Below, piece by piece: positions 1,889 through 38,277 of a stretch of DNA of 64,000 nucleotides; the first letter of the stretch is position 1, and each line of letters starts with the position of its first letter. This DNA comes from Deltaproteobacteria bacterium. Lineage in GTDB: Bacteria; Myxococcota_C; UBA6777. The notes beneath the pieces are model-generated. The model was not told the DNA's origin, searched no databases, and saw only the letters and a list, made by a program, of their open reading frames with translations. The DNA lies in the NCBI GenBank assembly GCA_002731275.1, contig PCBK01000119.1:1-64000 (forward strand), written 5' to 3'. The translations under genes and the position numbers were made by a program.

Positions 1889-3166
1889 TCATGCATCTTT
1901 CCCCAACACATCCCCAATCAAGTCATCGATATCCAGGTAAGAAAAGTATGACGGATTGAGTTCTTTGAGTTGTTTTTCGAGCTTTGTCTTTGTCTCTTGA
2001 TCATCTTCTTGAATGGCTTGTTTGCGTCTGGCCATGATGTCAGTAATTTCTTGGTTGAATGGAGATGTTGATTCAAACAAGGGTGACATCAAGATTTCAT
2101 CGACGGGGCGGTTGGCGTATTCTGCTGTTTCATCGACGACTTCGCAGTAGTCCGTTTTGGCTTTACATACAAAAAGCCGGGCATGAGGGACTGACGAGAT
2201 GATGAAAGGGGAGTGTGTTGTCGCGATGATTTGAAGGTTTGGGAAGAGAGTAAGGATACTTGATATGAAGCGTTTTTGCCATTTGGGGTGAAGTTGGTTC
2301 TCTGCTTCGTCGATGATGAGGATGCCTGGAGTTTGGCCGATGTTCTCCACTGGCGTTTTTCGAATGAAGTGAGAGGAGTACATCTTCCTCAAGAGACCGA
2401 GTAGGTGTTGGACGAGGTAGAGATTGCCACTGCTGAGATTGCCGAGTCGGATTTGTTGTCCATTTTGGATGATAATGGGATCGTAGGTTGTACGGGCGAC
2501 ATGACTGAGCTTTCCTCCGTCGAGTAGACTTAACTCAAAGATCCGTTCGAGCATACCCCAAAGGTGTTCTGCCATGTGTTTTTCGTCTGGGTCGCGACTA
2601 TCTCGTAGATAGTCAAGGTGACAAATCAGCTGTGTGAGGTCCGACTTTTCACGAGTCCCTTGGAGAGTGCCTCGCATGAAAGCGTAATGGTCGATATTTG
2701 CGAGGGAGTTAATGTTGTACGATTGCCCACTCGCCAACGAGGACGGCCAATAATCGAGTATCCAATTGGGACAAACTCCAGGCTCTTTTGATTGATATAA
2801 GTGAAATGGTATGGCGTCTAATTGAAGGCCGTCTATCCCAGGGAGGAGCTTGTCTGCATGACGTATCTTGTTTTCCATGATCCCTGTAGATTCCAACGAG
2901 AATAGTGATGTTGATGAGTTGTATGAGACAACACCAGACATCTTTATGCTTTGTTCTGTTGTTCCTGAACGGCGGATATCTCTTTCTAATAAACAGTATT
3001 GTGGACCAAAGATGCCTCTGATTGCGTCGAGGATGATGCTTTTTCCCGTGCCATTTTCACCTGTGATGAGGACGACAGGGGGTTTTTTTTCGTTGTCTTC
3101 AAAGAATGTAAGCGAGGCTTCTTTGAAGGGGCCGATGTTTTGCAGAGACAATTCTTTGGCATACAT
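1889..3166 (-). CDS. AAA-family ATPase of SMC/RecF/OLD type
   Basis: Predicted P-loop ATPase, 425 aa from the chosen start MYAKELSLQNIGPF, which is the typical beginning of this family. The frame stays open another 24 codons upstream (to 3238) with non-conserved sequence. Walker A is GENGTGKS at residues 36-43. Walker B is LIIDEAENQLHP in the C-terminal third, followed by the switch motif ATTHSPF. This is the compact ABC/SMC-like fold of AAA_15/AAA_21 ATPases. No TOPRIM nuclease is visible, so it is not a full OLD nuclease. It is transcribed divergently from the NACHT gene at 3411. Relatives often work in phage-defence or DNA-repair modules with a partner effector. That role is inference from family and neighbour. 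Confidence 0.85.
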   Translation of the reverse strand: MYAKELSLQNIGPFKEASLTFFEDNEKKPPVVLITGENGTGKSIILDAIRGIFGPQYCLLERDIRRSGTTEQSIKMSGVVSYNSSTSLFSLESTGIMENKIRHADKLLPGIDGLQLDAIPFHLYQSKEPGVCPNWILDYWPSSLASGQSYNINSLANIDHYAFMRGTLQGTREKSDLTQLICHLDYLRDSRDPDEKHMAEHLWGMLERIFELSLLDGGKLSHVARTTYDPIIIQNGQQIRLGNLSSGNLYLVQHLLGLLRKMYSSHFIRKTPVENIGQTPGILIIDEAENQLHPKWQKRFISSILTLFPNLQIIATTHSPFIISSVPHARLFVCKAKTDYCEVVDETAEYANRPVDEILMSPLFESTSPFNQEITDIMARRKQAIQEDDQETKTKLEKQLKELNPSYFSYLDIDDLIGDVLGKDA

Positions 3167-3285
3167 GATGGCTCTATTCGTCCTTCCTTCGGGTTGCAGG
3201 ATACAATCGCAATGTATCACAAGAGCCTCTCTTGTCAATGTCCCCCAATCTGTGGAGTGAGTCAGACAAAGTTTGTGTCTGCTTG

Positions 3286-3373: not shown

Positions 3374-3410
3374 TTGAGAGTACACATCAAAAACACATAT
3401 GGAGAACGAA

Positions 3411-6400
3411 ATGGCGGATGTAATTTTGCTTGCGACAGCACTCAGCAAGCTCATTGGTATGGGTATGGCTGGGTGGAAAGCTGCGAAAGAAGATGGGGTC
3501 GGTGCAAGCGAATTGAGATGTTTAAAGGAGATCACAGGGTCGGTTTCGACCTTCGCCAAACTTTTTGGTTCTGAGCCTGACGCTCCTGCAAAACACCTTG
3601 AACTTGTTCTTCGCTCTTTTGGCGATGCTTTCAAAGAGCACTGGGGGGGGAATAATGCTCTCGCACCGAAGGTCTGGAAGAAGCGTTGGTATGATTTTTT
3701 CCACGAGAGCGAGGAGAGCGAACGGCGGAAAGAGCTTGCTGCTAGGGTCAGAACTGCTGTTGATAAATTCTCTGCGCAATTGAGCGCCGAAGGGGAGAGG
3801 GCGGGGTTGGAGCTGCTAGGGAGGCTGGTAAGTCATCCTCTGAAAAGTCCTTACTATGATGCTCTTTTTGATGTCTTTACAGACGAGGAACTATCTGGCG
3901 AAGATGATGAAATTTTGCTCGAACTGGGAGATGGGGGGAGGAGAAAGTTTGAAATGGATTTCCTTCTAGCCTACCGCAAGGGGTTGGCTGCTCCCCAAGG
4001 GCGTGAAATTCTTTCGTATATCCAAAGTCTGGAAGAACATTGGCCAGAACTCGTTCGGGTTCTCATTGCCCAAGAGCTTGTTGGGTGGAAAGAACGACAT
4101 GTATTTGGTAATGTCAGAGAACACGACGATATGGAGCATATGCCTCTGGAGAAAATGTATGTTGAGCCATTTGTCTCTGTTGAACTTGGTGATGCAGATG
4201 GTGAAGGCTCAACTTTTCCACGAAAGGCAAAAGAGTGCATTTATGAACTCCTCGAAAAGTATCCGATTGTTCTTGTGAGTGCCGACTTTGGACATGGCAA
4301 ATCCCTTACGGCTCGAACTCTGGCATGGGAGTGGGCACAACGTTACTTGGAGGATCCTGCCAACAGCCTGGAGCTTTTTTACCCACTCTTTGTCAAAAGT
4401 GGAGAGGATTTCCTTAGCCGAGAATGCGATATCAAAAAGGGTGCGAAGCGGGCGTTGCGAAGAGCCGCAAAAGGCTTTGGTTTGGAAAGGAGTATTGAGG
4501 ATCCTGGATTTGATTTTCCACCGGATGCACAAAGAACGGTAATTATTCTAGATGGTTTGGACGAAGTCCTCTTGAGTCCTGGAGAGTTAGGTGAATTATT
4601 TCAGCAGCTGAAGGATTTCTCATCCAACCAACATCGTTTTTTGGTTTTGTCTCGCCCTGCGGGTTTGCCTCATCAGACAAAGAGAGAAGGTATACCCGTA
4701 GTCAAGATTCAATCGTTTACGCTGGAGGCTGAAAGGCAAAAAACATCGCAGGTTGAACAATGGCTTGATCGTTGGAATACATTGAGGGTAACAAATAGCA
4801 CCCACCAAATCGTTACGATTGATGAGATTCGTACCAGAGATGAGGATGGGGAGCTCCTCAAAATCACACAGACACCAATCCTTCTCTTTATGCTCGCTTA
4901 CACTTGGCAGAATCACCAAAGCAAAGGAAAGACCATTGTCCGAAAGGATATTTACGAAGAGTTTTTTCGTGCAATAGCGAGGGGGAAATATAAACTGGGA
5001 AAAGAAGAGCATTCACCGATAGAATCAGCCTCCAAAAGGTTGTTGGAGAGTCTCACCAAGTGCGGTGAACTTGAGGAATGTGAGGATTCTGGAAACGGAG
5101 ACCAAGTTGTCCAGGCTATGTTGTGGTTGATGTCTCGTGTTGCCTGGGAAGCTCATCGACAACAGCAGAATAAACCGGATAGGCCGCTGACAAAAAGCAA
5201 AGTCGAAAATATTCTGGATGGTGAGTTGGAGATCCCTTCGGAAGACGTGCGCTGTGTTCAACTCGGGCTTTTGCTTGTGTTGCAAACCGACTTGGACGGA
5301 AACTCAGATCAAATTCTTTTCGGTCATAAATCGTTTCGGGAGTTTCTTGTAGCCAGATTTTGGCAACATCAGCTGAGAAAGTTAACAAAGACAAGAAATC
5401 GCCAGAAGCGAGCAAAGATCGAGTCTGCTCTCCACGGTGCTGAGTTAATTGTACATGAAGATCGCAGTTTTTCGTTTTTGAAGGAATTCCTGAACGGTGA
5501 TGATTGGACTGAACAAGAACGAAACGAGCTTTTTGAGTGGGCACAAGAAACTCTCAATGACGAGGAGCCTCACACGACTATTTCGTTTGGTAAGGATCCA
5601 AGGCCTGTTTTGCGTAGGGATGCTCTTGCCATTGGTTCTTCTCTTTATGAAACCTCGGGACAAAGAATAAAACTTGAGAGTGAAGGGGGCCTACGTTCGA
5701 TGATTGCTTGGTTTTGGTTGAAAAGTAAGCCACTTGTGCTCATTGCCTTAGATGTCGACTTCCAAGGAGCCAATCTCTCAGGAGCCAATCTCTCAGGAGC
5801 CAATCTCTCAGGAGCCAATCTCTCAGGAGCCAATCTCCAAGGAGTCAATCTCTCAAGAGTCAATCTCTCAAGAGTCAATCTCTCAGGAGCCAATCTCTTA
5901 GGAGCCAATCTACCAGGAGTCAATCTACCAGAAGTCAATCTCCAAGGAGCCAATCTCCAAGGAACCAATCTCCAAGGAACCAATCTCCAAGGAGCCAATC
6001 TCCAAGGAACCAATCTCCCTGGTGCCTACCTCGCGAGAGCCAATCTCTCAGGAGCCCATCTACGAGGAGTCAATCTCTCAGGAGCTCATCTACGAGGAGC
6101 CAATCTCTCAGGAGCCCATCTCCAGGGAACCTATCTTGTAAGAACTAGGCTCCAGGGAGCCGACCTTGAAGGAGCCGACCTTGAAGGAGCCAATCTTGAA
6201 GGAGCCAATCTCTCAGGAGCTAATCTCTCAGGAGTCAATCTTGAAGGAGCCAATCTTCGAAGGGTCAAGCTTGAAGGAGCCAACCTCCGAAGAGCCAAGC
6301 TCGAAGGAGCCAATCTTGAAAGGGCACGTTACAACAGTAAGACAAAGTGGCCGGGAAAATTCAAACACAAAAATGTGGGGATGATTGGACCAAAAGCTGT

Positions 6401-6956
6401 TCTTGTAGGGGCCGAGCTCGTAGGAGCCGACCTTGAAGGAGTCAATCTTGAAGGAGTCAATCTTGAAGGAGTCAATCTTGAAGGAGTCAATCTTGAAGGA
6501 GTCAATCTCCGAAGAGCCAAGCTCGAAGGAGCCAATCTTGAAGGAGCCCGTTACGATAGTAAGACAAAGTGGCCGGGAAAATTCAAACACAAAAATGTGG
6601 GGATGATTGGACCAAAAGCTGTTCTTGTAGGAGCCGAGCTCGTAGGAGTCAATCTTGAGAGAGCGGACCTCGAAGGAGCGGACCTCAAAGGAGTCGAGCT
6701 TTGCTTCTCTAATCTTGAAGGAGCCAAGCTTGAAGGAGCCAGCCTTAAAGGAGCCAACCTTGTAGCAACCCGGCTTCATAGAGCCGATTTCGAAGGAGCC
6801 GACCTTGAAGGAGCCAACCTTGAAGGAGCCAATCTTCGAAAAGCAAATTTGCATGGGACCAAGCTCAAAGGGGCCAAATATAACAATGATACCAAGTGGC
6901 CTGACAACTTCGACCCCATAGAATTCGGAGCAATTAACACAGACAAAGAGGCTTGA
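3411..6956 (+). CDS. NACHT NTPase with giant C-terminal pentapeptide-repeat domain
   Basis: STAND-type NTPase of 1,181 aa. I chose ATG 3411 because GGAG at 3401-3404 is correctly spaced for it; an in-frame ATG at 3399 lacks a ribosome site. Residues 1-270 are an uncharacterised helical N-terminal part and a linker. The NACHT core shows Walker A (ADFGHGKS, about 291-298) and Walker B (VIILDGLDEV, about 377-386), followed by helical winged-helix-like sequence. From about residue 782 to 1150 the protein is A(N/D)LxG pentapeptide repeats, expected to form a right-handed beta-helix. A non-pentapeptide module (YNSKTKWPGKFKHKN and onward) interrupts the helix twice and a decayed third copy ends it. 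Related STAND proteins sense ligands, often phage proteins, through C-terminal repeats. A defence role here is inference; the N-terminal effector type is not recognised. Confidence 0.85.
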   Translation: MADVILLATALSKLIGMGMAGWKAAKEDGVGASELRCLKEITGSVSTFAKLFGSEPDAPAKHLELVLRSFGDAFKEHWGGNNALAPKVWKKRWYDFFHESEESERRKELAARVRTAVDKFSAQLSAEGERAGLELLGRLVSHPLKSPYYDALFDVFTDEELSGEDDEILLELGDGGRRKFEMDFLLAYRKGLAAPQGREILSYIQSLEEHWPELVRVLIAQELVGWKERHVFGNVREHDDMEHMPLEKMYVEPFVSVELGDADGEGSTFPRKAKECIYELLEKYPIVLVSADFGHGKSLTARTLAWEWAQRYLEDPANSLELFYPLFVKSGEDFLSRECDIKKGAKRALRRAAKGFGLERSIEDPGFDFPPDAQRTVIILDGLDEVLLSPGELGELFQQLKDFSSNQHRFLVLSRPAGLPHQTKREGIPVVKIQSFTLEAERQKTSQVEQWLDRWNTLRVTNSTHQIVTIDEIRTRDEDGELLKITQTPILLFMLAYTWQNHQSKGKTIVRKDIYEEFFRAIARGKYKLGKEEHSPIESASKRLLESLTKCGELEECEDSGNGDQVVQAMLWLMSRVAWEAHRQQQNKPDRPLTKSKVENILDGELEIPSEDVRCVQLGLLLVLQTDLDGNSDQILFGHKSFREFLVARFWQHQLRKLTKTRNRQKRAKIESALHGAELIVHEDRSFSFLKEFLNGDDWTEQERNELFEWAQETLNDEEPHTTISFGKDPRPVLRRDALAIGSSLYETSGQRIKLESEGGLRSMIAWFWLKSKPLVLIALDVDFQGANLSGANLSGANLSGANLSGANLQGVNLSRVNLSRVNLSGANLLGANLPGVNLPEVNLQGANLQGTNLQGTNLQGANLQGTNLPGAYLARANLSGAHLRGVNLSGAHLRGANLSGAHLQGTYLVRTRLQGADLEGADLEGANLEGANLSGANLSGVNLEGANLRRVKLEGANLRRAKLEGANLERARYNSKTKWPGKFKHKNVGMIGPKAVLVGAELVGADLEGVNLEGVNLEGVNLEGVNLEGVNLRRAKLEGANLEGARYDSKTKWPGKFKHKNVGMIGPKAVLVGAELVGVNLERADLEGADLKGVELCFSNLEGAKLEGASLKGANLVATRLHRADFEGADLEGANLEGANLRKANLHGTKLKGAKYNNDTKWPDNFDPIEFGAINTDKEA
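5760..6330 (+). repeat. 15-bp tandem repeat array encoding pentapeptides
   Basis: Dozens of near-identical 15-mers of the type GGAGCCAATCTCTCA, each coding one pentapeptide, run head to tail in frame. Neighbouring units are often identical at the DNA level, including silent positions. That points to recent expansion or homogenisation by recombination or slippage rather than selection on protein alone. Confidence 0.85.
6336..6426 (+). repeat. Segmental duplication inside NACHT gene, copy 1
   Basis: This 91-bp block is repeated 222 bp downstream at 6558-6648 with one visible mismatch (position 6410). It encodes the non-pentapeptide module SKTKWPGKFKHKN through to the next pentapeptides. A diverged third version of the protein module (YNNDTKWPDNF) ends the gene. 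Confidence 0.9.
6558..6648 (+). repeat. Segmental duplication inside NACHT gene, copy 2
   Basis: Second copy of the 91-bp block at 6336-6426, in frame (offset 222 bp, 74 codons), so the duplication adds or removes whole beta-helix segments without breaking the frame. Confidence 0.9.
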
Positions 6957-8650: not shown

Positions 8651-8726
8651 CGGAACGTTGTGTGAACAGGCAGCACGCCAAGCTCTAGAGAGTTTGGAAG
8701 TACAGGTTCGAATCCTGTCATTCCGT
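8651..8726 (+). tRNA. Second tRNA-like gene, anticodon uncertain
   Basis: It starts 26 bp after the first tRNA-like gene. Acceptor CGGAACG/CATTCCG has one C-A mismatch; T8 and T9 are present. The D-arm is GTGT/GCAC with a loop containing GGCA. The T-arm ACAGG-TTCGAAT-CCTGT is perfect and canonical. The anticodon arm is odd: six pairs CCAAGC/GTTTGG close an eight-nucleotide loop TCTAGAGA, so a normal seven-base loop with U33 does not fit. CTA or AGA are possible readings. No CCA is encoded. It is probably co-transcribed with the first gene up to the terminator at 8785. Confidence 0.5.
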
Positions 8727-8815: not shown

Positions 8816-8833
8816 GTTTAGGCCACTCCAATT

Positions 8834-8882
8834 GAAGCGAGCTTGTGTAGGGATAAATCTATCGAAGCGAGATTGTGTAGGG
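8834..8882. repeat. Two copies of a 19-bp direct repeat, 30-bp period
   Basis: GAAGCGAGCTTGTGTAGGG (8834-8852) and GAAGCGAGATTGTGTAGGG (8864-8882) differ at one base. They lie between the tRNA terminator and the repeat-protein gene. Function unknown. Confidence 0.6.
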
Positions 8883-8968: not shown

Positions 8969-9571
8969 TTATCGACGACGACGTTGTTTGGAGAAGATGG
9001 GACCAGACATAATGCAGGGGAAGATCGCTGCAAGTCTCGCAGGTGCGGGGATTCCCTTCAGACGGTCGTTGATGCGCCAGCGATTCCAGCTCTTGCTGAA
9101 CACTGTGCGGACAGACGCACGACCTGAACCCGTAATACGCCAGCGATTCCAGCTCTTGCTGAACACTGTGCGGATGTTAAAACGCTTGGTCACGTAACGA
9201 CGTCCTCGCTTGTAACGGACTGTCAAACGCCAGCGATTCCAGCTCTTGCTGAACACTGTGCGAAGCTCCGCGCGACCACCACGCCAGGTGATACGCCAGC
9301 GATTCCAACTCTTGCTGAACACTGTGCGAATATTTACATTTTTTCGACCCACACGTGCACGCCAGCGATTCCAGCTCTTGCTGAACACTGTGCGAAGACG
9401 AACGTTTTTTCTGCCCATACGGACATTCCAGCGATTCCAACTCTTACTGAACACTGTTCTGGCGCTCTTCACGCGCTGTGCATCTGCTTGTTGAATATGC
9501 AGTCCAAGAAAGCATCCTACGCTGAAAACAGCGATCATGCCGAGGCGAATAAGTTGATTTGTTTGTGACAT
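8969..9571 (-). CDS. Secreted protein with six RTVFSKSWNRW repeats
   Basis: Unrecognised secreted protein, 200 aa, very basic. A good ribosome site (AAGGAG, 8 nt before the ATG) fixes the start at 9571. Residues 1-31 are a signal peptide with a hydrophobic core and an ADA-Q type I cleavage site. The mature chain then carries six exact copies of RTVFSKSWNRW separated by linkers of 11, 11, 11, 19 and 10 residues. The linkers vary but stay Arg/Lys-rich with beta-like alternation (for example the GRKNV core in the first two). The tail (RINDRLKG to RRRR) is not repeated. Exact conservation of the 11-mer against variable linkers could reflect a multi-copy peptide precursor, a repeat beta-solenoid or a basic surface ligand. 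Neighbours give no clear clue. Confidence 0.8.
   Translation of the reverse strand: MSQTNQLIRLGMIAVFSVGCFLGLHIQQADAQRVKSARTVFSKSWNRWNVRMGRKNVRLRTVFSKSWNRWRARVGRKNVNIRTVFSKSWNRWRITWRGGRAELRTVFSKSWNRWRLTVRYKRGRRYVTKRFNIRTVFSKSWNRWRITGSGRASVRTVFSKSWNRWRINDRLKGIPAPARLAAIFPCIMSGPIFSKQRRRR
9075..9460 (-). repeat. Six 35-bp in-frame repeats inside the repeat protein
   Basis: Copies lie at 9075-9109, 9138-9172, 9228-9262, 9294-9328, 9360-9394 and 9426-9460. The unit begins CGCCAGCGATTCCAGCTCTT on the plus strand. Intervals are 63, 90, 66, 66 and 66 bp, all multiples of three. The first four copies differ by at most one base and the last is the most diverged. Confidence 0.95.
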
Positions 9572-9895
9572 CTAGGTCTCCTTTTGGATTCGTGTCGACT
9601 CTTCTTCATCGAATGCGACAAAGTCATGTTAATGGATTGGACGACGCTCGTTGTCATTTGTCGCAAAAAAAATGAACGTCTCTCACACTTTTTTTGTACT
9701 TGGTGTCAAATGTTCTGAAATCGTTCAAGAAATAGCTGACGTTGAGAGCATCAAATCCAGTCTGTGTATGTATCATGCCAGGGGAGAGTCTTCGAGGTTT
9801 GGGTGATGGGGGTCGTTTGTGGGAGTGATAAGGCCACTACAAGAAAAAAGAGTTGAGGAAAAAGCGCACGAAGTGTGTGGATGAGGAGCAGATGT
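9572..9895. other. 324-bp intergenic region, no gene seen
   Basis: It lies between the end of the AsmA-like gene and the start of the repeat-protein gene, both on the minus strand. I see no convincing ORF, terminator stem or tRNA. It must hold the promoter of the repeat-protein gene; a TTGACA hexamer occurs on the minus strand near 9700 but lacks a good partner -10 at 17 bp. Confidence 0.4.
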
Positions 9896-21979: not shown

Positions 21980-24900
21980 TTATGGTCTGATGTTCTCGCC
22001 ACCCATGTAGGGTTCCTCGCCAATATAGAACGGTAGCATGTAGAAGCCCCAATTGGCAGAGGTGTTTGTTGAGTTGTTAAACGTCAGCGTTCCTTTGTAC
22101 TGGCCGTACAAGAACAACTCGTCACTGTCGCCTTTCGTTCCGTAAGTGTACACCTCAGAAGAGGCACCACCACCACGGTAGAACCAGAGCGGATCAGCGT
22201 TGAGTTTCATTCCTAACAAGAAGATGTCTCTCGTGCCGACTTGTGGGCTATTTGCCAACGTGCCGATCTTCATGCTTCCTGTGGTTTCGCCTAGGACAAT
22301 GATGTAGCGGAAGTCGACAAGGATGTCTTTTCCGATACTCAATCCACTTGATGTGGGGAAGGATTTGGCCGCGAGGAATGTACCAGAGCTGCTGATCTTT
22401 GCGTAGAATGCTTCACCTGTGGTCGAGGTGGGGTTGAGGGTCAGGTTCCCAAGTTTTGTGTTGGGGGTGATCGCGCCTGTGATGAAGAGGTTTTGGTTCT
22501 GATCTGCGGTGAATTGTGTCAGGATATCATCGCCCTGTCCACCACCTGCGGTGATCGATGAGACATCACCTGTTGAGGCGTTGAGCTTCGCGAAGAATAA
22601 ATCTTTTCCACCTGTAGAAGTGACCTTTTGTGTGCCACTCTTGTCTTGAAGTGTGCCTTCGAATTGACCCCCGACAAAGAGGTTGGGTTGGATGCTCATG
22701 AAGATAGCAGCACCGTCTACAGATTTGCTCGCACCAAGTGAAATCGCCCATGTCAGGGCACCTGTGTTGTAATTGAATGAGGCGACAAACAGCGCTTGAC
22801 CACCTGCTGGGGCTGTCAGAGTTGTTTTGACCTGCAGACCAAATTCAACAGTTGTCGTGAAGGTCCCCAGCACATACACCTGCGATCCATACTCATAGAC
22901 AGCTTTGGGTACGATTGTTCCGCCACCTTTGTTGTATGCTTTCGCCAAAAAGCGGGTGTTGGTGGTGGAGCGTTTCAACAGGAACATGTGGTTTGTGGCT
23001 GTGGGGTATGGATTGTCGAATGTATAGGCTGTTCCGATGTTTCCTGAGAAAGCAGCTTTGTAGGTTCCTGCGATGTACATACTGTATATCGAATTTCCAG
23101 CAAATGCGGTGAGCTTTTCATCTCCGGGGCCTTTGAGATCGAGGAGGACGCTTGAGAATTTCTTTTGGGATGTGGAGTACTGGGCGATGTAGATATCTGA
23201 TGCGCCTTGGCCTGTCAGCGTTGAAGTGCCCAAAACGAGCGTTCCTGAGTAGTTACCTGCGACGGTGATCGTGCTGTAGCTGGGGATCAGCCCAACTGTC
23301 GAGCGGCTTGTTTGGGGGACGAGCGAGATACCATTCCCTTTACATTCACCGGAAATACAGGAGTAGATATTGCTATTTGGACAGCTGGTGTTGGTTGTAC
23401 ATCCACGAACACAGCTACCTCGCAGACAGCTTTCACTTCGTTGACATGCGAAGCCACAACTACCGCAGTGATTGAACTCTGTTTGGAGTTTTACACAAGC
23501 GCCTGCACAGCAGCTTTCGCCTGTACCACATTTAACGCCACACGCGCCGCAATTGTTGTTGTCTGTTTGGAGATCAAAACATCCTGAACCACAACATGTT
23601 TGTCCCGCAAAGCAGAAGTTTCCACAAGCGCCGCAGTGTCTTTGGCTTGTCAGTGAGGTACATGTTCCGTTACAACAGCCTTCGCCTGTTGCGCAGGTTT
23701 TTCCACAAGCGCCGCAGTTATTCGCATCGTTTTGTAGGTCAGCGCAGGCGTTTCCACAGCAAGATTCGCCAACTTTACAGGTTTTGTTACACGCACCGCA
23801 GTGTGTGACGTTGCCTGTTGTGCCTACGCATCGACCATTACAGCAGCTTTGTCCACTTCCGCAAGCGACGCCACAACCGCCACAGTTGTTGGTGTCATTG
23901 AGGAAGTCAATACAACCACCACCACAACAGATCTCACCAGGTTTACATTGTTTTCCACAACCGCCACAGTTTGTGCGGTCGAAGCGGGTGTCGATACACT
24001 GGTCACTACAACACGCGAGCTGGGATGAGCAACAGCCCGAACCACAAACTGTTTCGCTTTGTGTACATTGCGTACATTTCCCATTCACGCAGCGCTCCGT
24101 GTCTTTACAGGGTGAGTCACAACCACCGCAATGTTTAGGGTGGATTTGGAGATCAACACATTGGTCTGTACAGAGAGATTGTGCGCCGGGGCAGATGCAT
24201 TTTCCGCTGACACATGCCTGTCCTGGTTTGCAAGACGTCCCGCATGCTCCACAGTGTTGGAAGTCACGTGTTGTATCGACACATTGGCCACTGCAAACCG
24301 TTTGCTTGTCTGGGCAGATCAGGACACAAGAACCATCCTGGCAGGATTCACCGACTTTGCAGACTTGTCCACATTTTCCACAATGTTTGACGTCTGATTT
24401 GATATCCCGGCAGTATCCATCGCATTCTGTGTAGGTTTCGGGGCAGATACATTTTCCTTCGGAGCATTGTTTGATGCCTGTGCAGGAGGGGACACAGATG
24501 TTGGGAGATTGGCAACGTTTTTGGAGGCAGACGAGTCCTTCTGTACAGTCTGCGTTTACTTCGCAGGGGCGGTTGATACAACCTTCATCCACCTGGTTGT
24601 CACAGTCGTTATCTTTTCCGTCACAGATTTCGGGAGTGGGTGTTTGTTGGTTTTGACACTCGCTCCATGAACCGTCACTTCCGCAGGTACGTGTCCCTGG
24701 AGAGCAGATACCTATATTTTTTGTGCCCTCTGGCCCAGTGTAGCAGGCTTCTGTTGTGTTGGGGGTGGGGCAGCTACAATCGATGTCATTATCTGTCTTG
24801 CCGTCGCAGTCGTCGTCTTTTCCGTTGCATGTTTCGGCTTGTGGAAGGAGCTGTGAGAGGCAAGGGCCCCAAGTCTTGTCGTCCTGGCATACACGTGAAC

Positions 24901-25636
24901 CTGCTTTACAGATACCGACGTTTTGGGTACCTGCAGCGCCAGCATAACAGGTCTCTTTGTCGCCGGGTTTGTCACATGTACAGCCGCTCGGTGTGTCGTC
25001 GATTTTTCCGTTACAGTCGTCATCTTTTCCGTTACATTCTTCTTTTGTGGGGCTGCCACTTCCTTGGCAGGAGCCCCACTTGTTGTCACTTCCACACTCA
25101 CGCACGCCAATTTTACATTCGCCGATATTGCGGGTGCCTGCTGGACCTTCGTAACAGGGCTGACTGGAGCCGGGTTCACAAAAAGAGGTACATTCTGAGT
25201 CGAATTTGTCGATGTTTCCATCACAATCATTGTCGATATTGTCGAAGCACTTGTCTTTGGTGTCTTCTTTTTCGATCTTGATGGGTAAACAATCCCCCCA
25301 TTTTCCATCGAGTCCTTCGTCTTCTGCGCCACAAGTTTGTTGTCCTGTTTTACAAAAGTTACCGATGTCGTTGGGGAGCAAGGCACATGAGCGGATCTCG
25401 CCTTTGGTTTTGCACGTCTCGCGCTTGGTCGCGGAGCATTTTCCAGAGTAACAACCTCCGACATAGTCGACGTTGTTACATTCACAGTCCTGGCTACAGG
25501 GGCTGCCATTTGGATCGATTGTAAAGTCGCTGATGCGTTTCCCATCCACGCACACAGATGGTGCCGAACAGGCTGTAGGGCCTATGAGTAGCGCTGCACA
25601 GATAATGAGAGCGCCCATCCGAATGATTGTGTACAT
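21980..25636 (-). CDS. Cys-rich lipoprotein with MopE motifs and beta-repeat tail
   Basis: 1,218-aa secreted protein. The signal sequence ends with GPTAC (Cys about residue 23), probably lipidated; a second Met at residue 7 is an alternative start. Residues 60-390 contain four Asp/Cys MopE motifs (EECNGKDDDCNGKIDD type), each followed by a CYxGxxGTxNIGIC knot. Residues 395-780 contain ten repeats of about 30-40 residues with HCGACG or NCGGCG cores and six or more Cys each. The C-terminal 430 residues are Cys-poor with repeating beta strands (ASDIYIAQYSTSQKKF, ALFVASFNYNTG, DLFFAKLNASTGDV, AFYAKISSSGTFL), like SBBP/beta-propeller repeats. Likely a surface adhesin or scaffold. It shares modules with its neighbours at 14221 and 25736. 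Confidence 0.85.
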   Translation of the reverse strand: MYTIIRMGALIICAALLIGPTACSAPSVCVDGKRISDFTIDPNGSPCSQDCECNNVDYVGGCYSGKCSATKRETCKTKGEIRSCALLPNDIGNFCKTGQQTCGAEDEGLDGKWGDCLPIKIEKEDTKDKCFDNIDNDCDGNIDKFDSECTSFCEPGSSQPCYEGPAGTRNIGECKIGVRECGSDNKWGSCQGSGSPTKEECNGKDDDCNGKIDDTPSGCTCDKPGDKETCYAGAAGTQNVGICKAGSRVCQDDKTWGPCLSQLLPQAETCNGKDDDCDGKTDNDIDCSCPTPNTTEACYTGPEGTKNIGICSPGTRTCGSDGSWSECQNQQTPTPEICDGKDNDCDNQVDEGCINRPCEVNADCTEGLVCLQKRCQSPNICVPSCTGIKQCSEGKCICPETYTECDGYCRDIKSDVKHCGKCGQVCKVGESCQDGSCVLICPDKQTVCSGQCVDTTRDFQHCGACGTSCKPGQACVSGKCICPGAQSLCTDQCVDLQIHPKHCGGCDSPCKDTERCVNGKCTQCTQSETVCGSGCCSSQLACCSDQCIDTRFDRTNCGGCGKQCKPGEICCGGGCIDFLNDTNNCGGCGVACGSGQSCCNGRCVGTTGNVTHCGACNKTCKVGESCCGNACADLQNDANNCGACGKTCATGEGCCNGTCTSLTSQRHCGACGNFCFAGQTCCGSGCFDLQTDNNNCGACGVKCGTGESCCAGACVKLQTEFNHCGSCGFACQRSESCLRGSCVRGCTTNTSCPNSNIYSCISGECKGNGISLVPQTSRSTVGLIPSYSTITVAGNYSGTLVLGTSTLTGQGASDIYIAQYSTSQKKFSSVLLDLKGPGDEKLTAFAGNSIYSMYIAGTYKAAFSGNIGTAYTFDNPYPTATNHMFLLKRSTTNTRFLAKAYNKGGGTIVPKAVYEYGSQVYVLGTFTTTVEFGLQVKTTLTAPAGGQALFVASFNYNTGALTWAISLGASKSVDGAAIFMSIQPNLFVGGQFEGTLQDKSGTQKVTSTGGKDLFFAKLNASTGDVSSITAGGGQGDDILTQFTADQNQNLFITGAITPNTKLGNLTLNPTSTTGEAFYAKISSSGTFLAAKSFPTSSGLSIGKDILVDFRYIIVLGETTGSMKIGTLANSPQVGTRDIFLLGMKLNADPLWFYRGGGASSEVYTYGTKGDSDELFLYGQYKGTLTFNNSTNTSANWGFYMLPFYIGEEPYMGGENIRP

Positions 25637-25735
25637 CTTTTTTCCTTGTTGGTTAAAAATTCTTCCAGTGTGTAGAGTCTATCTTACATGGGGCGATGAT
25701 GTAAAGTGAGTGACTGTATTTTTACAGCCGCATTT

Positions 25736-28700
25736 TTAATCACAGATAAGGCACGTACAGCTTGCGTTCTTGCACTTGAGCTTGAAGGGTTGGTTGCACT
25801 TGTTATAACAACGTCCACAATGGTCCTTGGTGTCGCGTCTATCGTAGCATTTCCCACCACAACAGATATGGTTGGTTGGGCAGGCGTTGCCACAGCTCGT
25901 GCAGTGGTTGTTGTTGTGAAGGAGGTCGACACACGAGCCGCTGCAGCAAGTTTGACCTGATGGACAGACGTTCCCGCAAGCGCCGCAATGGTTTCTGTCG
26001 ATATCTGTGGTGACACACTTGCCCCCACAGCACGTGAAGCCCGTTGGACAACACGTATCTCCACAGGGGGTCGCCGTTTGTGGGCAGTCGGTCACACATT
26101 GGCTTGCGACACATTTTTTGCCGGACGGGCAACCATTTCCACATTGACCACAGTGCGCGATGTCCGACTGTAAATCGACACATTTCCCAGCACAGAGGGC
26201 TTTTCCTTGTGGACAGACACAGCTACCGCCGCTGCAGATTTTGTCCGCTGCGCAGCGATTCCCACATTGGCCACAATGATCGCTGTCTGTCATTGCATCC
26301 ACACATTTTCCGCTACAAAAGCGTTGTCCGCCAGGGCATTCACAAATGCCGTTGTTGCACGTTTGGGTTCCAGGACATGGGGTGTCACACTTTCCACAGT
26401 GGTCTTTCGCGGACATCAAATCGATACATTGTGATTGGCTCAAACAGTACGAAAATCCCTTTGGGCAACAATGGCCTACACTGCACAATTCATCCATTTT
26501 GCAGGACGACGCGCAAGCGCTGCAGTGGGCTGTATTTCGCTGAAGATCTACACATTGACCGGCACAACAAGTCTCCTGTTTGGCGCAACCATTTTGGCAG
26601 GCTCCACAGTGATCGTTGTTATCCGTGAGTGAGATACACGTCCCACCACAGCAACCGAATCCTTTTGTGGGGCAACATGTTCCGCCACATACAGAGGTCC
26701 CTGACGGGCAAGAAGACACACACACACCAGCCGCGCACTTTTCACCTCCCATGCAACTTTTTCCACATACGCCGCAGTGGTTGGGGTCCGTCTGGATGTT
26801 TGTGCATGCGCCATTGCAGAGCTGTTGTCCCTTTGGGCATTCGCATCTTCCGGCGATACAGAGTTGTCCCGTTTGGCAGGAATATTTGCACACACCACAG
26901 TGTGAGACGTCTTTGGATTTGTCGACACATACACCATCGCAGCGGGTCAATTGGCCTGGACATTCGCATGTACCGGATTGGCATGTCTGTGGGGAGGGGC
27001 AAGAAGTCGTACACGTCCCGCAGTGGCTGTTATTTGCGCGTAGATCAATGCACCGTTTGACATTCTCGCACCAAGTGTATCCTTGTGGGCAGCAGTGTCC
27101 GGCTGAGCATTGTTCATCTTGTTGGCAGAGTAAATTACAAGCCCCACAGTGTTTGGAGTCCTTGGCGAGGTCGTGACAGCTTTGTCCGCAGCACGTTTCA
27201 TCTTTCCCGCAAGCGTTGCCACAAGCGCCACAATGTGTCGGGTTGTTTTGCAGTGATACACATTGGTCGGCGCAGCAAGCCGTTTGAAGGTTTGCATTTG
27301 CGCAGCATGTGTCTCCACAACTGTTTGTGTCCGTTGGGCAGGACGCCACACAGCTCCCTAGATAGCATTTTTCGCCTTGTTGACAGGCAACACCGCAGGC
27401 TGAACAGTGCTGTGTGTTTTTCGTCGTGTCGACACACGTTTGGCCACAAAGAGTGGTGCCTGAAGGGCAAACGCACCGGCCTTCTGTGCAGACTTGTTCA
27501 TCGACACAGGCTTGATTGCACGCCCCACAGTGTTTGTCGTTGGTGGTGAGCTTTACACAAACCCCCTGGCAGCACGTTTGGTTGGTTGCGCAGGCATTTC
27601 CACACTGTCCACAGTGTTTGGGAGAGTTTTGGGTGTCCACGCAGGTCTTGGTTGTGGTCCCACAAGCCTGTTCACCTGCCTGACAACAGAGTCCTCCGAG
27701 GCACGATTCACCTGTGGCGCAAGCATTCCCACATGCGCCACAGTGTGTGGTGTTGTTTGTTGTGTCAACACATGTGTCTTTGCACCAACGCTCCGTTTTC
27801 TTACAACAGTGCGACTGTTGACAAGTTTCGTCTTGTGAGCAGGTCGTTCCACAACGGCCACAGTGATTTGGATCATCGGTCAGGTCGACACAAGAACCTT
27901 CACACCACTGTTTGCCTGCAGGGCAGCAGTGTCCATTGACGCAGATGTTGTTTCCGGTACATCGGGTGTTACACTGTCCACAGTGTTCGACGTCTTTGTT
28001 GAGGTCTACGCATTTTTGGGGACTTTCGCACCAACTCTTCGTTGAGGGGCAGCAGTGTCCCTCCTGGCAAGTTTCGTTGTTTTGGCAGGATTGCGAACAT
28101 GCCCCACAGTGTTTGAGGTCATTTTTGATTCGGACACATGTGCCTTTGCAACAGAGCCCTTCTCCTGCGCAGGGAGTGTCTTCGTCAACTTTTCCATCGC
28201 AATCGTTGTCTTTTCCATCGCAGATTTCGGGGGGGCAGAGCATACAGTGGGCGTCATTGGATTTGAGCTTCGCTTTTCCCGATGGATCTGTACCAAAGAG
28301 GTCGATGTAGAATGCACATCGTTCTCCCTCCTTGCTGAAGCAGTCGTACTCGGGAGCTTGAATGATGCTACATGACTCCTGCATTTTTTGATGATAGGCT
28401 TTGTGGACGATATAGAGCCTGAAGTAGATATCTGTCGCTTCGAATTCCGTAGGAAGTTTGAGTAGCTTGTAGGGGGGCGAGCCGTCTGTTTGTGTCGGGA
28501 TAATGGAGCCGTCTGGTTGGATCGTTACGGCTGTATAGTAGTCCCCTTTTTGTTGGGTGTTTCGACCTTTCCAAAGGGTGACGAGGCAGCCTCTCTCCGC
28601 GGTCGCTTGTCCAGTGACGCCACCAAACAAGTCTTTGTAAGCTGTCATGGATTGGTACGCCGGGAGGGCGAGGACCTGTTTGGGATCACATTGTCCCTGC

Positions 28701-28822
28701 CCAAAGACGATTTTTTCCGGAGTATTTTGACAATGTGTGAGTAACACACTGAGGGAAAAAAACAGAAGCAATTTGAGGAAGTGTTGTAACCGTGTGTATG
28801 TTTTACGGTGACCTGTACGCAT
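25736..28822 (-). CDS. Lipoprotein with twenty Cys-knot repeats
   Basis: 1,028 aa; the ATG at 28822 has AAGGA upstream. Signal sequence and lipobox LLTHC at about residue 32. Residues 35-190 are an N-terminal domain without repeats (QSMTAYKDLFGG, DIYFRLYIVHKAY). One MopE motif (EICDGKDNDCDGKVDE) follows, then twenty tandem repeats of about 40 residues. Each has the pattern CVDxxxDxxHCGxCGxxCxxxxxCxxGxCxC and ends in a CC pair or a PxGxxxC turn. The repeats resemble Stig1/TILa-like Cys-rich modules described in myxobacterial surface proteins. More than a tenth of residues are Cys, so an oxidising envelope location is certain. No catalytic site is visible. Only 99 bp separate it from the next lipoprotein gene, so co-expression is likely. 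Confidence 0.85.
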   Translation of the reverse strand: MRTGHRKTYTRLQHFLKLLLFFSLSVLLTHCQNTPEKIVFGQGQCDPKQVLALPAYQSMTAYKDLFGGVTGQATAERGCLVTLWKGRNTQQKGDYYTAVTIQPDGSIIPTQTDGSPPYKLLKLPTEFEATDIYFRLYIVHKAYHQKMQESCSIIQAPEYDCFSKEGERCAFYIDLFGTDPSGKAKLKSNDAHCMLCPPEICDGKDNDCDGKVDEDTPCAGEGLCCKGTCVRIKNDLKHCGACSQSCQNNETCQEGHCCPSTKSWCESPQKCVDLNKDVEHCGQCNTRCTGNNICVNGHCCPAGKQWCEGSCVDLTDDPNHCGRCGTTCSQDETCQQSHCCKKTERWCKDTCVDTTNNTTHCGACGNACATGESCLGGLCCQAGEQACGTTTKTCVDTQNSPKHCGQCGNACATNQTCCQGVCVKLTTNDKHCGACNQACVDEQVCTEGRCVCPSGTTLCGQTCVDTTKNTQHCSACGVACQQGEKCYLGSCVASCPTDTNSCGDTCCANANLQTACCADQCVSLQNNPTHCGACGNACGKDETCCGQSCHDLAKDSKHCGACNLLCQQDEQCSAGHCCPQGYTWCENVKRCIDLRANNSHCGTCTTSCPSPQTCQSGTCECPGQLTRCDGVCVDKSKDVSHCGVCKYSCQTGQLCIAGRCECPKGQQLCNGACTNIQTDPNHCGVCGKSCMGGEKCAAGVCVSSCPSGTSVCGGTCCPTKGFGCCGGTCISLTDNNDHCGACQNGCAKQETCCAGQCVDLQRNTAHCSACASSCKMDELCSVGHCCPKGFSYCLSQSQCIDLMSAKDHCGKCDTPCPGTQTCNNGICECPGGQRFCSGKCVDAMTDSDHCGQCGNRCAADKICSGGSCVCPQGKALCAGKCVDLQSDIAHCGQCGNGCPSGKKCVASQCVTDCPQTATPCGDTCCPTGFTCCGGKCVTTDIDRNHCGACGNVCPSGQTCCSGSCVDLLHNNNHCTSCGNACPTNHICCGGKCYDRRDTKDHCGRCYNKCNQPFKLKCKNASCTCLICD

Positions 28823-29005
28823 CAATCAACCGGTCCTTGTTGCTCGTTATGTTTTGTGTGTCGTGGCGCGGTCGTTCCAAAGGAGGTCGGAGCCTGCTTC
28901 CTTTGTATACGACAGATTGAAACGTGTTTCAACTTTGGCGTGGTGGTCTTTTTGGGTGGGCTGGGTTGAAGGTTCTTTTTTATGAGCCAAGAGGAGCAGG
29001 GCGAG

Positions 29006-36339: not shown

Positions 36340-37938
36340 TCAAAAAAAATCAAAATTGATGCCTAAGTGCGCTGAAATACGCCAGTTTTCGATAGTTGTT
36401 TGAAGGTCTCCTTGGATACGAATGTGGTAAGGTTGGAAAAACCCTTGCACACCAATGTCCGCAAAGAGCCCGAATCCTCCCGCCCACTTCCACCATAGCG
36501 CAATCCCAAGATGTCCTCCTGGTCGTACTCTCCAAAATTCGACTTCTTCTCTCGCCAGTCTGAATCCATCGATTAACACACCCAACTCCAATCGGATGTC
36601 GAGGTTGCGACTCGCGTAACGAGGGAGCGGTGGGCTGATCATGAAACCGCCTCGCCACGACAGCAGGTCGATGCCTTGATTCAATCCTGGTATCGTGCCG
36701 ATCGATGCGTTGATGCGAAGCCTCCATCCCTCAAGCCATCCTCGCCGTTTCCCCAGATAGACCCCCAGAGATCCTCCTAGCGGGAATGCGGGCTGAGAAG
36801 AGAGCGTCGTGTCTGTCTGGCTCTGGACCCCTCTCGATATGTACAACGCACCATTTCCTGCAATCTGTGCCCCAAACTCCCACGCTGACGTGATTCTCGG
36901 CTGTATTCGGTTGACGACACTTCCCCCTAAAGCCACTTTTCTTCCGACAGGTCGTCTCTTTTCTGGTTTTTTGTTCGCGGTGATTCTTCTCGGTGATGTG
37001 CGGTTTTTTACAGGCGGAACTGTTCGACGTGGCGCCGTCTTTGTTCCTGTGTTGCCCTGTACACTACCTCCTGTTGCTGGTGGTGTCGTAAGAGTTGGCG
37101 TTGTGCGACTCGGTGGTGCCGTACGATTTGGTGATGCCGTACTGTTCGATGGTGCCGTATTGTTCGATGGTGCCGTATTGTTCGGTGATGCTGTACTGTT
37201 CGATGGTGTCGTACTGTTCGATGGTTCCGTACTGTTCGGTGGTGTCGTGCGAACTGGTTTTCTACGAGGCGGTGGTGTCGTGCGAGCTGGTTTTCTACGA
37301 GGCGGTGGTGTCGTGCGAGCTGGTTTTCTGCGAGGTGGTGATGAACCTTTAGGACGTGCTGTGCGTGTTGATGGTGTTGTTCGTCTTTTGGGGGCACTGG
37401 TCAGAGGTGAGCCTGTCTTCGCTCTTTTAGAGCGGAGAGAAGGTGTTTGACGTCTGCGTTTGCGTGGACGCTTTGGGGGGGTTGTGCGCATCTTTTGTGA
37501 TGCCTTTTGTGCCTTTCGGTTTGGTCGCGTTCGAGGGGGAGAGGGGGGAGGCGAAAGGTATGGGTCCTTTACGAGCACAGAACGTACAAGGCGGACGTCT
37601 GGAGCTATTTTGATAAAGTGTTCAAAGTGGGTCAGGATGGTCCGGGCTTTCACCCATGGATCGTTCATCGTTGCAGGTAACGTTAAGGAGTAGCTCTGTT
37701 TTCCTCTTCGGAATTGAACTTCTTGGGGTTGTCTCCAGATGAGGTGGATGACTCCTGTGCTGGAGTTCCAGGTGACAAGGTATCCTCTGCGTGTCAAAAA
37801 GCGCGAAAGCATCTTGTACGAGCGCTTATGTCTTGTGCGATCGGAGTGGACGATGGAGATGTGAGTTCTTGCTGCAAACACTGCAGACGGCAAACTACAT
37901 ACCCAAATCAAACATCCAATCCAAATTGATATTTTCAT
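36340..37938 (-). CDS. Outer-membrane beta-barrel protein with Pro/Thr-rich stalk
   Basis: 532 aa from ATG 37938 (GTG 37944 is possible). Signal peptide with AFA-ART cleavage at about residue 22. Residues 22-120 form a small domain (YKMLSRFLTRRGYLVTW). Residues 125-310 are low complexity: three copies of RRKPARTTPP, then a run of NSTxPSNNTAP-type hexapeptides. The last 180 residues show alternating amphipathic strands (LRINASIGTIPG, LDIRLELGVLIDGF, GFGLFADIGVQGFFQPYHIRIQGDL) and end in Phe, the classic signature for Bam-dependent barrels. It is first in the sigma/anti-sigma/kinase run, 74 bp before the sigma gene. The unusual stalk may cross the cell wall or surface layer. Confidence 0.75.
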   Translation of the reverse strand: MKISIWIGCLIWVCSLPSAVFAARTHISIVHSDRTRHKRSYKMLSRFLTRRGYLVTWNSSTGVIHLIWRQPQEVQFRRGKQSYSLTLPATMNDPWVKARTILTHFEHFIKIAPDVRLVRSVLVKDPYLSPPPSPPRTRPNRKAQKASQKMRTTPPKRPRKRRRQTPSLRSKRAKTGSPLTSAPKRRTTPSTRTARPKGSSPPRRKPARTTPPPRRKPARTTPPPRRKPVRTTPPNSTEPSNSTTPSNSTASPNNTAPSNNTAPSNSTASPNRTAPPSRTTPTLTTPPATGGSVQGNTGTKTAPRRTVPPVKNRTSPRRITANKKPEKRRPVGRKVALGGSVVNRIQPRITSAWEFGAQIAGNGALYISRGVQSQTDTTLSSQPAFPLGGSLGVYLGKRRGWLEGWRLRINASIGTIPGLNQGIDLLSWRGGFMISPPLPRYASRNLDIRLELGVLIDGFRLAREEVEFWRVRPGGHLGIALWWKWAGGFGLFADIGVQGFFQPYHIRIQGDLQTTIENWRISAHLGINFDFF

Positions 37939-38277
37939 ACTCACCCAGCATCACATTGTTTACCTTCACACTATAGCAAGGGCCCCATCGGTTCCGCAAC
38001 GCCCTGACGGGTTTATTCTTGCTGATCTTTTGATGCTCTGGGTATTTGTTTGTGTTCACATCTTCTATGCATTGTTGCGAAATGATGAATGTTTCTTCTT
38101 TTTGGAGTGGTTTGTTTCATGAAGTGTTTACTTTTTGCAAAATATGAAATGTTTTTCGTTGACTTGCTTGGTGGATGCTGATACTTTCTTTGCGATGCGA
38201 GAACGGACTCTTCCATGTAGTTGCGTGTTTGGATGTTCTCGGGATACGTCTTGACCATCGAATGATTGAGGTGAGTG
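37939..38277. other. Divergent intergenic region, no gene
   Basis: 339 bp between the minus-strand barrel gene and the plus-strand metalloprotease gene. Apart from the promoter at 38159-38187 I see no other structure. Confidence 0.5.
38159..38187 (+). promoter_or_regulatory. Candidate sigma-70 promoter of the metalloprotease gene
   Basis: TTGACT (38159-38164), a 17-bp spacer and TACTTT (38182-38187). Predicted leader of about 84 nt to the start at 38278. Confidence 0.4.

Follow-up and report, generated by a model that had tools for sequence, protein, structure and literature searches.

A basic, putatively secreted repeat protein with six identical RTVFSKSWNRW motifs, coded by a hairpin-forming DNA repeat

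The window (the whole stretch of DNA analysed, 64,000 nucleotides) carries on its reverse strand a gene for a 200-residue basic protein, in which six exact copies of RTVFSKSWNRW alternate with variable linkers behind a putative signal peptide. Our preferred reading, held tentatively, is that the gene product is a lineage-restricted, Sec-secreted structural repeat protein whose stacked cationic β-units would bind polyanions at the cell envelope or in the matrix. The DNA coding for the motif also folds into a hairpin, and other explanations have to be weighed against this one.

Reading frame and repeat organisation

The repeat array is stop-free in only one of the six frames. Hydropathy in the ORF at 8969–9571 peaks at residues 10–23; the N-terminal hydrophobic core, LGMIAVFSVGCFLG, is followed by HIQQADA/Q and, judged by eye, the whole resembles a Sec signal peptide. 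The sequence-only reading had described a secreted repeat protein with six exact copies of the motif and no named family. The six copies were confirmed and their residue positions and DNA copies located (Table 1), while the putative signal peptide and the lack of a family match in the profile searches support the remainder of that description.

The motif copies start 22, 22, 22, 30 and 21 residues apart, which in gene order corresponds to 66, 66, 66, 90 and 63 nucleotides, and the five intervening linkers, all basic, are 11, 11, 11, 19 and 10 residues long. The 33-nucleotide motif sequence varies at four sites (1, 3, 15 and 21), each of them synonymously; random changes would produce a synonymous-only pattern with a probability of about 0.0006, a value that must be read in the knowledge that the motif was picked for its constant protein sequence. 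The linkers, which had been said to drift, are not simply drifting. Linkers 1 and 2 keep GRKNV in common through four synonymous differences, linkers 3 and 5 keep RIT..GRA, again with synonymous codon changes, and in both pairs about half of the shared codons differ synonymously. From the synonymous-only changes in the motif and the shared pattern of the linkers, we take the frame to be translated, with a repeat unit of some 22 residues composed of motif plus linker.

Table 1. Features of the repeat gene, with positions in the window
Feature	Position	Strand	Remarks
ORF, putatively secreted basic repeat protein, 200 aa	8969..9571	(-)	ATG start; stop codon 8969-8971
Shine-Dalgarno AGGAG, 6 nt ahead of ATG	9578..9582	(-)	read from sequence
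Putative Sec signal peptide, residues 1-31 (MSQTNQLIRLGMIAVFSVGCFLGLHIQQADA)	9479..9571	(-)	hydropathy and inspection
Motif copy 1, residues 38-48	9428..9460	(-)	differs from the other copies by three synonymous codons; little of the hairpin remains
Linker 1, NVRMGRKNVRL	9395..9427	(-)	
Motif copy 2, residues 60-70	9362..9394	(-)	
Linker 2, RARVGRKNVNI	9329..9361	(-)	
Motif copy 3, residues 82-92	9296..9328	(-)	one synonymous difference
Linker 3, RITWRGGRAEL	9263..9295	(-)	
Motif copy 4, residues 104-114	9230..9262	(-)	
Linker 4, RLTVRYKRGRRYVTKRFNI	9173..9229	(-)	8 residues longer
Motif copy 5, residues 134-144	9140..9172	(-)	
Linker 5, RITGSGRASV	9110..9139	(-)	
Motif copy 6, residues 155-165	9077..9109	(-)	
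Non-repeat C-terminal tail, RINDRLKGIPAPARLAAIFPCIMSGPIFSKQRRRR	8972..9076	(-)	model confidence low

Composition and predicted structure

The mature chain has 169 residues, among them 37 Arg, 13 Lys, 13 Trp and only 2 acidic ones; its pI is about 12 and its charge about +48. Single-sequence AlphaFold2, run without an alignment, placed about two β-strands in each unit in both models, with the units in a solenoid-like stack. Confidence was low, the mean pLDDT being 53.5 for the full chain and 63.5 for residues 32–172, and with tandem repeats the program may be biased towards solenoids. Foldseek with this low-confidence model returned no significant structural match (best E 0.39). The best rows from VIA-align were β-helices (Z about 10, rmsd 3.4) and the CsgA fibril (Z 9.1, rmsd 9.5), matches that show only that the model is solenoid-like. 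A modular β-solenoid, one of two interpretations offered in the sequence-only reading, agrees with the predicted strands and the solenoid-type matches, but the models are of low confidence and Foldseek lends it no significant match. Between those two interpretations we favour the modular β-repeat over the multi-copy peptide precursor.

In the arrangement that we envisage, each unit of about 22 residues would form two β-strands. The constant 11-mer would provide one strand and a tryptophan-containing turn, setting the stack, and the linker would provide a second strand, exposed and cationic, together with a loop of variable length; linker 4, being longer, and linker 5, being shorter, could be accommodated as loops or hairpins of corresponding length. 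The resulting stacked, strongly cationic sheet, at the envelope or in the matrix, would most likely bind polyanions, with LPS, exopolysaccharide or extracellular DNA as candidates. For a secreted, cationic, β-rich repeat, polyanion binding is the simplest role, a function that we infer from the charge alone.

Search for relatives

The sparsely sampled phylum is represented in the collection searched by five genomes, all from one family, and the four besides this one yielded no homologue. Nor was there one in some 970 other genomes, from two further phyla (195 and 398 genomes) and from a set of 386 domain-wide genomes, where the best other match (E 8e-4) has stops inside it and was read as chance. 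Plasmid and phage collections yielded no homologue, and neither PDB sequences nor the Pfam, NCBIfam, PHROGs and PADLOC profiles matched the repeat protein. Scans of collections of genome contigs and of viral contigs with exact 8-residue patterns, which diverged motifs would escape, found nothing, and a literature search for RTVFSKSWNRW returned no report. A profile and sequence search had been proposed in the sequence-only reading, and no characterised repeat domain was matched. We therefore use the word orphan with respect to the collections covered (genomes, phage, plasmid, viral, PDB and profiles, with metagenomes outside this scope). Because there is no relative, between-species conservation gives no test of these proposals.

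A hairpin in the motif DNA

The 36-nucleotide motif repeat folds into a hairpin of 14 bp with an energy of −17.0 kcal/mol. This was noticed in passing and not predicted beforehand, and the six copies count as one observation, not six. When the repeat was recoded synonymously 20,000 times, 0.01% of the sequences folded as well under the codon usage of the long ORFs of the window, which stands in for genome-wide usage, and 0.035% did so with uniform codons. The corresponding z is about −4.3; among 862 in-frame 36-mers taken as controls, 1 reached this value. The dyad symmetry is present in the coding repeat except in copy 1, where the stable hairpin has been lost (−6.6, z −0.6). The fold of the whole-gene RNA is unremarkable (z −1.38).

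These observations raise the possibility that a hairpin of DNA or RNA has spread or been kept uniform, the constant peptide being partly a by-product, as in coding palindromes of the RPE or PARCEL type. Besides the fold itself, this proposal draws on the synonymous codon identity among the motif copies, which at 0.87 exceeds both the 0.34 expected of independent draws and the value of about 0.5 seen at residues shared by linkers, and on the greater stability of the mRNA strand (−17 versus −12.4), in which two variable bases of the motif keep G–U pairs. Against it, copy 1 is without a stable hairpin, no pair is altered on both sides among the six copies, and the contrast between motif and linkers in synonymous change reaches only p = 0.06. 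Moreover, gene conversion is an equally simple cause of uniform codons, and recent duplication could also give them. The motif DNA is absent elsewhere in the 10.75-Mb genome by pattern search (at most 3 mismatches in 30), and a covariance model applied to five genomes, this one and four relatives, gave no credible further copy, the next match in the same genome having an E of 0.9. We regard this explanation as unlikely, though by no means negligible.

Palindromic DNA can code for tandem protein repeats, as exemplified by PARCEL, the palindromic amphipathic repeat coding elements (DUF285/TIGR02167; PMC2996958). Shared with the present gene are the tandem repeats, there in surface proteins, and coding DNA with dyad symmetry at the repeat period (PMC2996958). 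PARCEL, however, has a 25-residue period and a defining HMM and is widespread, whereas here there is a single orphan gene. The PARCEL HMM gave no match in Pfam and NCBIfam scans of the repeat protein and membership is rejected on this basis, in spite of the dyad symmetry. Rickettsia palindromic elements (RPE) likewise consist of palindromic DNA that is translated in frame (PMC2996958), but they are stand-alone insertions in assorted genes, whereas here six copies occupy one gene and none lies elsewhere.

The gene may also have arisen from the palindromic hairpin, or still be shaped by it, with selection or homogenisation acting both on the peptide and on the 36-nucleotide hairpin, and one sequence serving as β-repeat and nucleic-acid element alike; this we consider rather unlikely. 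Palindromic DNA has been proposed as a route to new proteins, one that is rarely caught. If the hairpin reading were true, the gene would show in compact form how a palindromic DNA element can give rise to a protein repeat; without it, the gene would still stand for a family of secreted repeat proteins that is new and restricted to its lineage, in a phylum with only five genomes in the collection. The hairpin-coded motif raises the interest of the gene, which the absence of relatives keeps moderate.

Other explanations

The VIA-align match to the CsgA fibril recalls a functional-amyloid subunit of the curli kind, in which secreted repeats of about 22 residues stack into fibres. The two proteins would have in common tandem units of about 22 residues behind a signal peptide, with two strands per unit (predicted here), but there is no sequence similarity between them. 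The Pfam curlin repeat profile gave no match to the repeat protein at a maximum E-value of 10, and CsgG (PF03783) had no match in the genome (94.65% complete), while 4 of 14 positive controls matched. CsgA repeats carry a Gln/Asn ladder, which is lacking from this extremely positive chain. Because CsgG is absent and the composition differs, we consider a curli-type amyloid improbable. The multi-copy peptide precursor suggested in the sequence-only reading, from which proteolysis would free cationic, Trp-rich RTVFSKSWNRW-type peptides with antimicrobial or signalling roles, is quite improbable. An exact, Arg- and Trp-rich 11-mer repeated behind a putative signal peptide is what such a precursor would contain, and linkers 1, 2 and 4 have dibasic sites. 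Linkers 3 and 5 have none, however, the linker pattern is conserved and β-strand-like, and Pfam recognised no processing, transport or tailoring (RiPP) gene, and no dedicated exporter, among the 18 ORFs scanned (0.6–44 kb); it is the irregular cleavage sites and the lack of recognised enzymes that weaken this proposal.

A non-coding or CRISPR-like array, with 36-nucleotide hairpin repeats, spacers of about 30 nucleotides and an accidental ORF, would account for the resemblance in repeat length, spacer length and hairpin to a small CRISPR array, since in such arrays, too, hairpin repeats that hardly differ are separated by variable spacers of comparable length. Here, in contrast, the array is translated and in frame: all spacings are multiples of three, the frame runs into a putative signal peptide with a ribosome site, and the spacers are alike as protein (linkers 1 and 2 are 64% identical). 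No cas gene was recognised among the same 18 ORFs, and the sole Cas1 match in the genome, on another contig (C79:51820–52158), is interrupted by a stop within the alignment. The coding evidence makes a CRISPR array very unlikely, to the point of being scarcely credible.

Genomic neighbourhood

The upstream neighbour of the repeat gene is an AsmA-family gene, conserved at about 54% identity in three relatives. In two of them a different gene follows the AsmA gene, and the site is not syntenic. Those relatives that have a name are MAGs carrying the label Myxococcota or Myxococcales. Downstream of the repeat gene lie two convergent tRNA genes with a terminator-like stem, and an Rfam scan found two tRNAs, one weak tRNA-like match and nothing else. 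The neighbours scanned point to no pathway.

Several other features of the window may be recorded. ARAGORN assigns a two-base anticodon but no amino acid to a tRNA-like gene at 8651–8726 (+), whose Rfam tRNA score of 26.8 is just below the cut-off of 29; its anticodon arm has a possible 8-bp stem, CCAAGCTC/GAGTTTGG, around TAGA. Past the tRNA terminator, at 8831–8882 (+), ATTGAAGCGAGCTTGTGTAGGG occurs as two 22-nucleotide direct copies (91%), 30 nucleotides apart. The gene at 1889–3238 (−) strongly matches the PADLOC model of the PtuA (Septu) ATPase (E 5.7e-142), and that at 3399–6956 (+) codes for an 1185-residue protein whose C-terminal region carries a long run of pentapeptide repeats and which has, by eye, a P-loop-like stretch, GHGKS. 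The plant-named STIG1-like family is matched 6 and 9 times by two large proteins encoded at 21980–28825 (−), and a protein encoded at 36340–37944 (−) combines a signal-like N-terminus with tandem repeats of the PRRKPARTTP and SNSTAP types.
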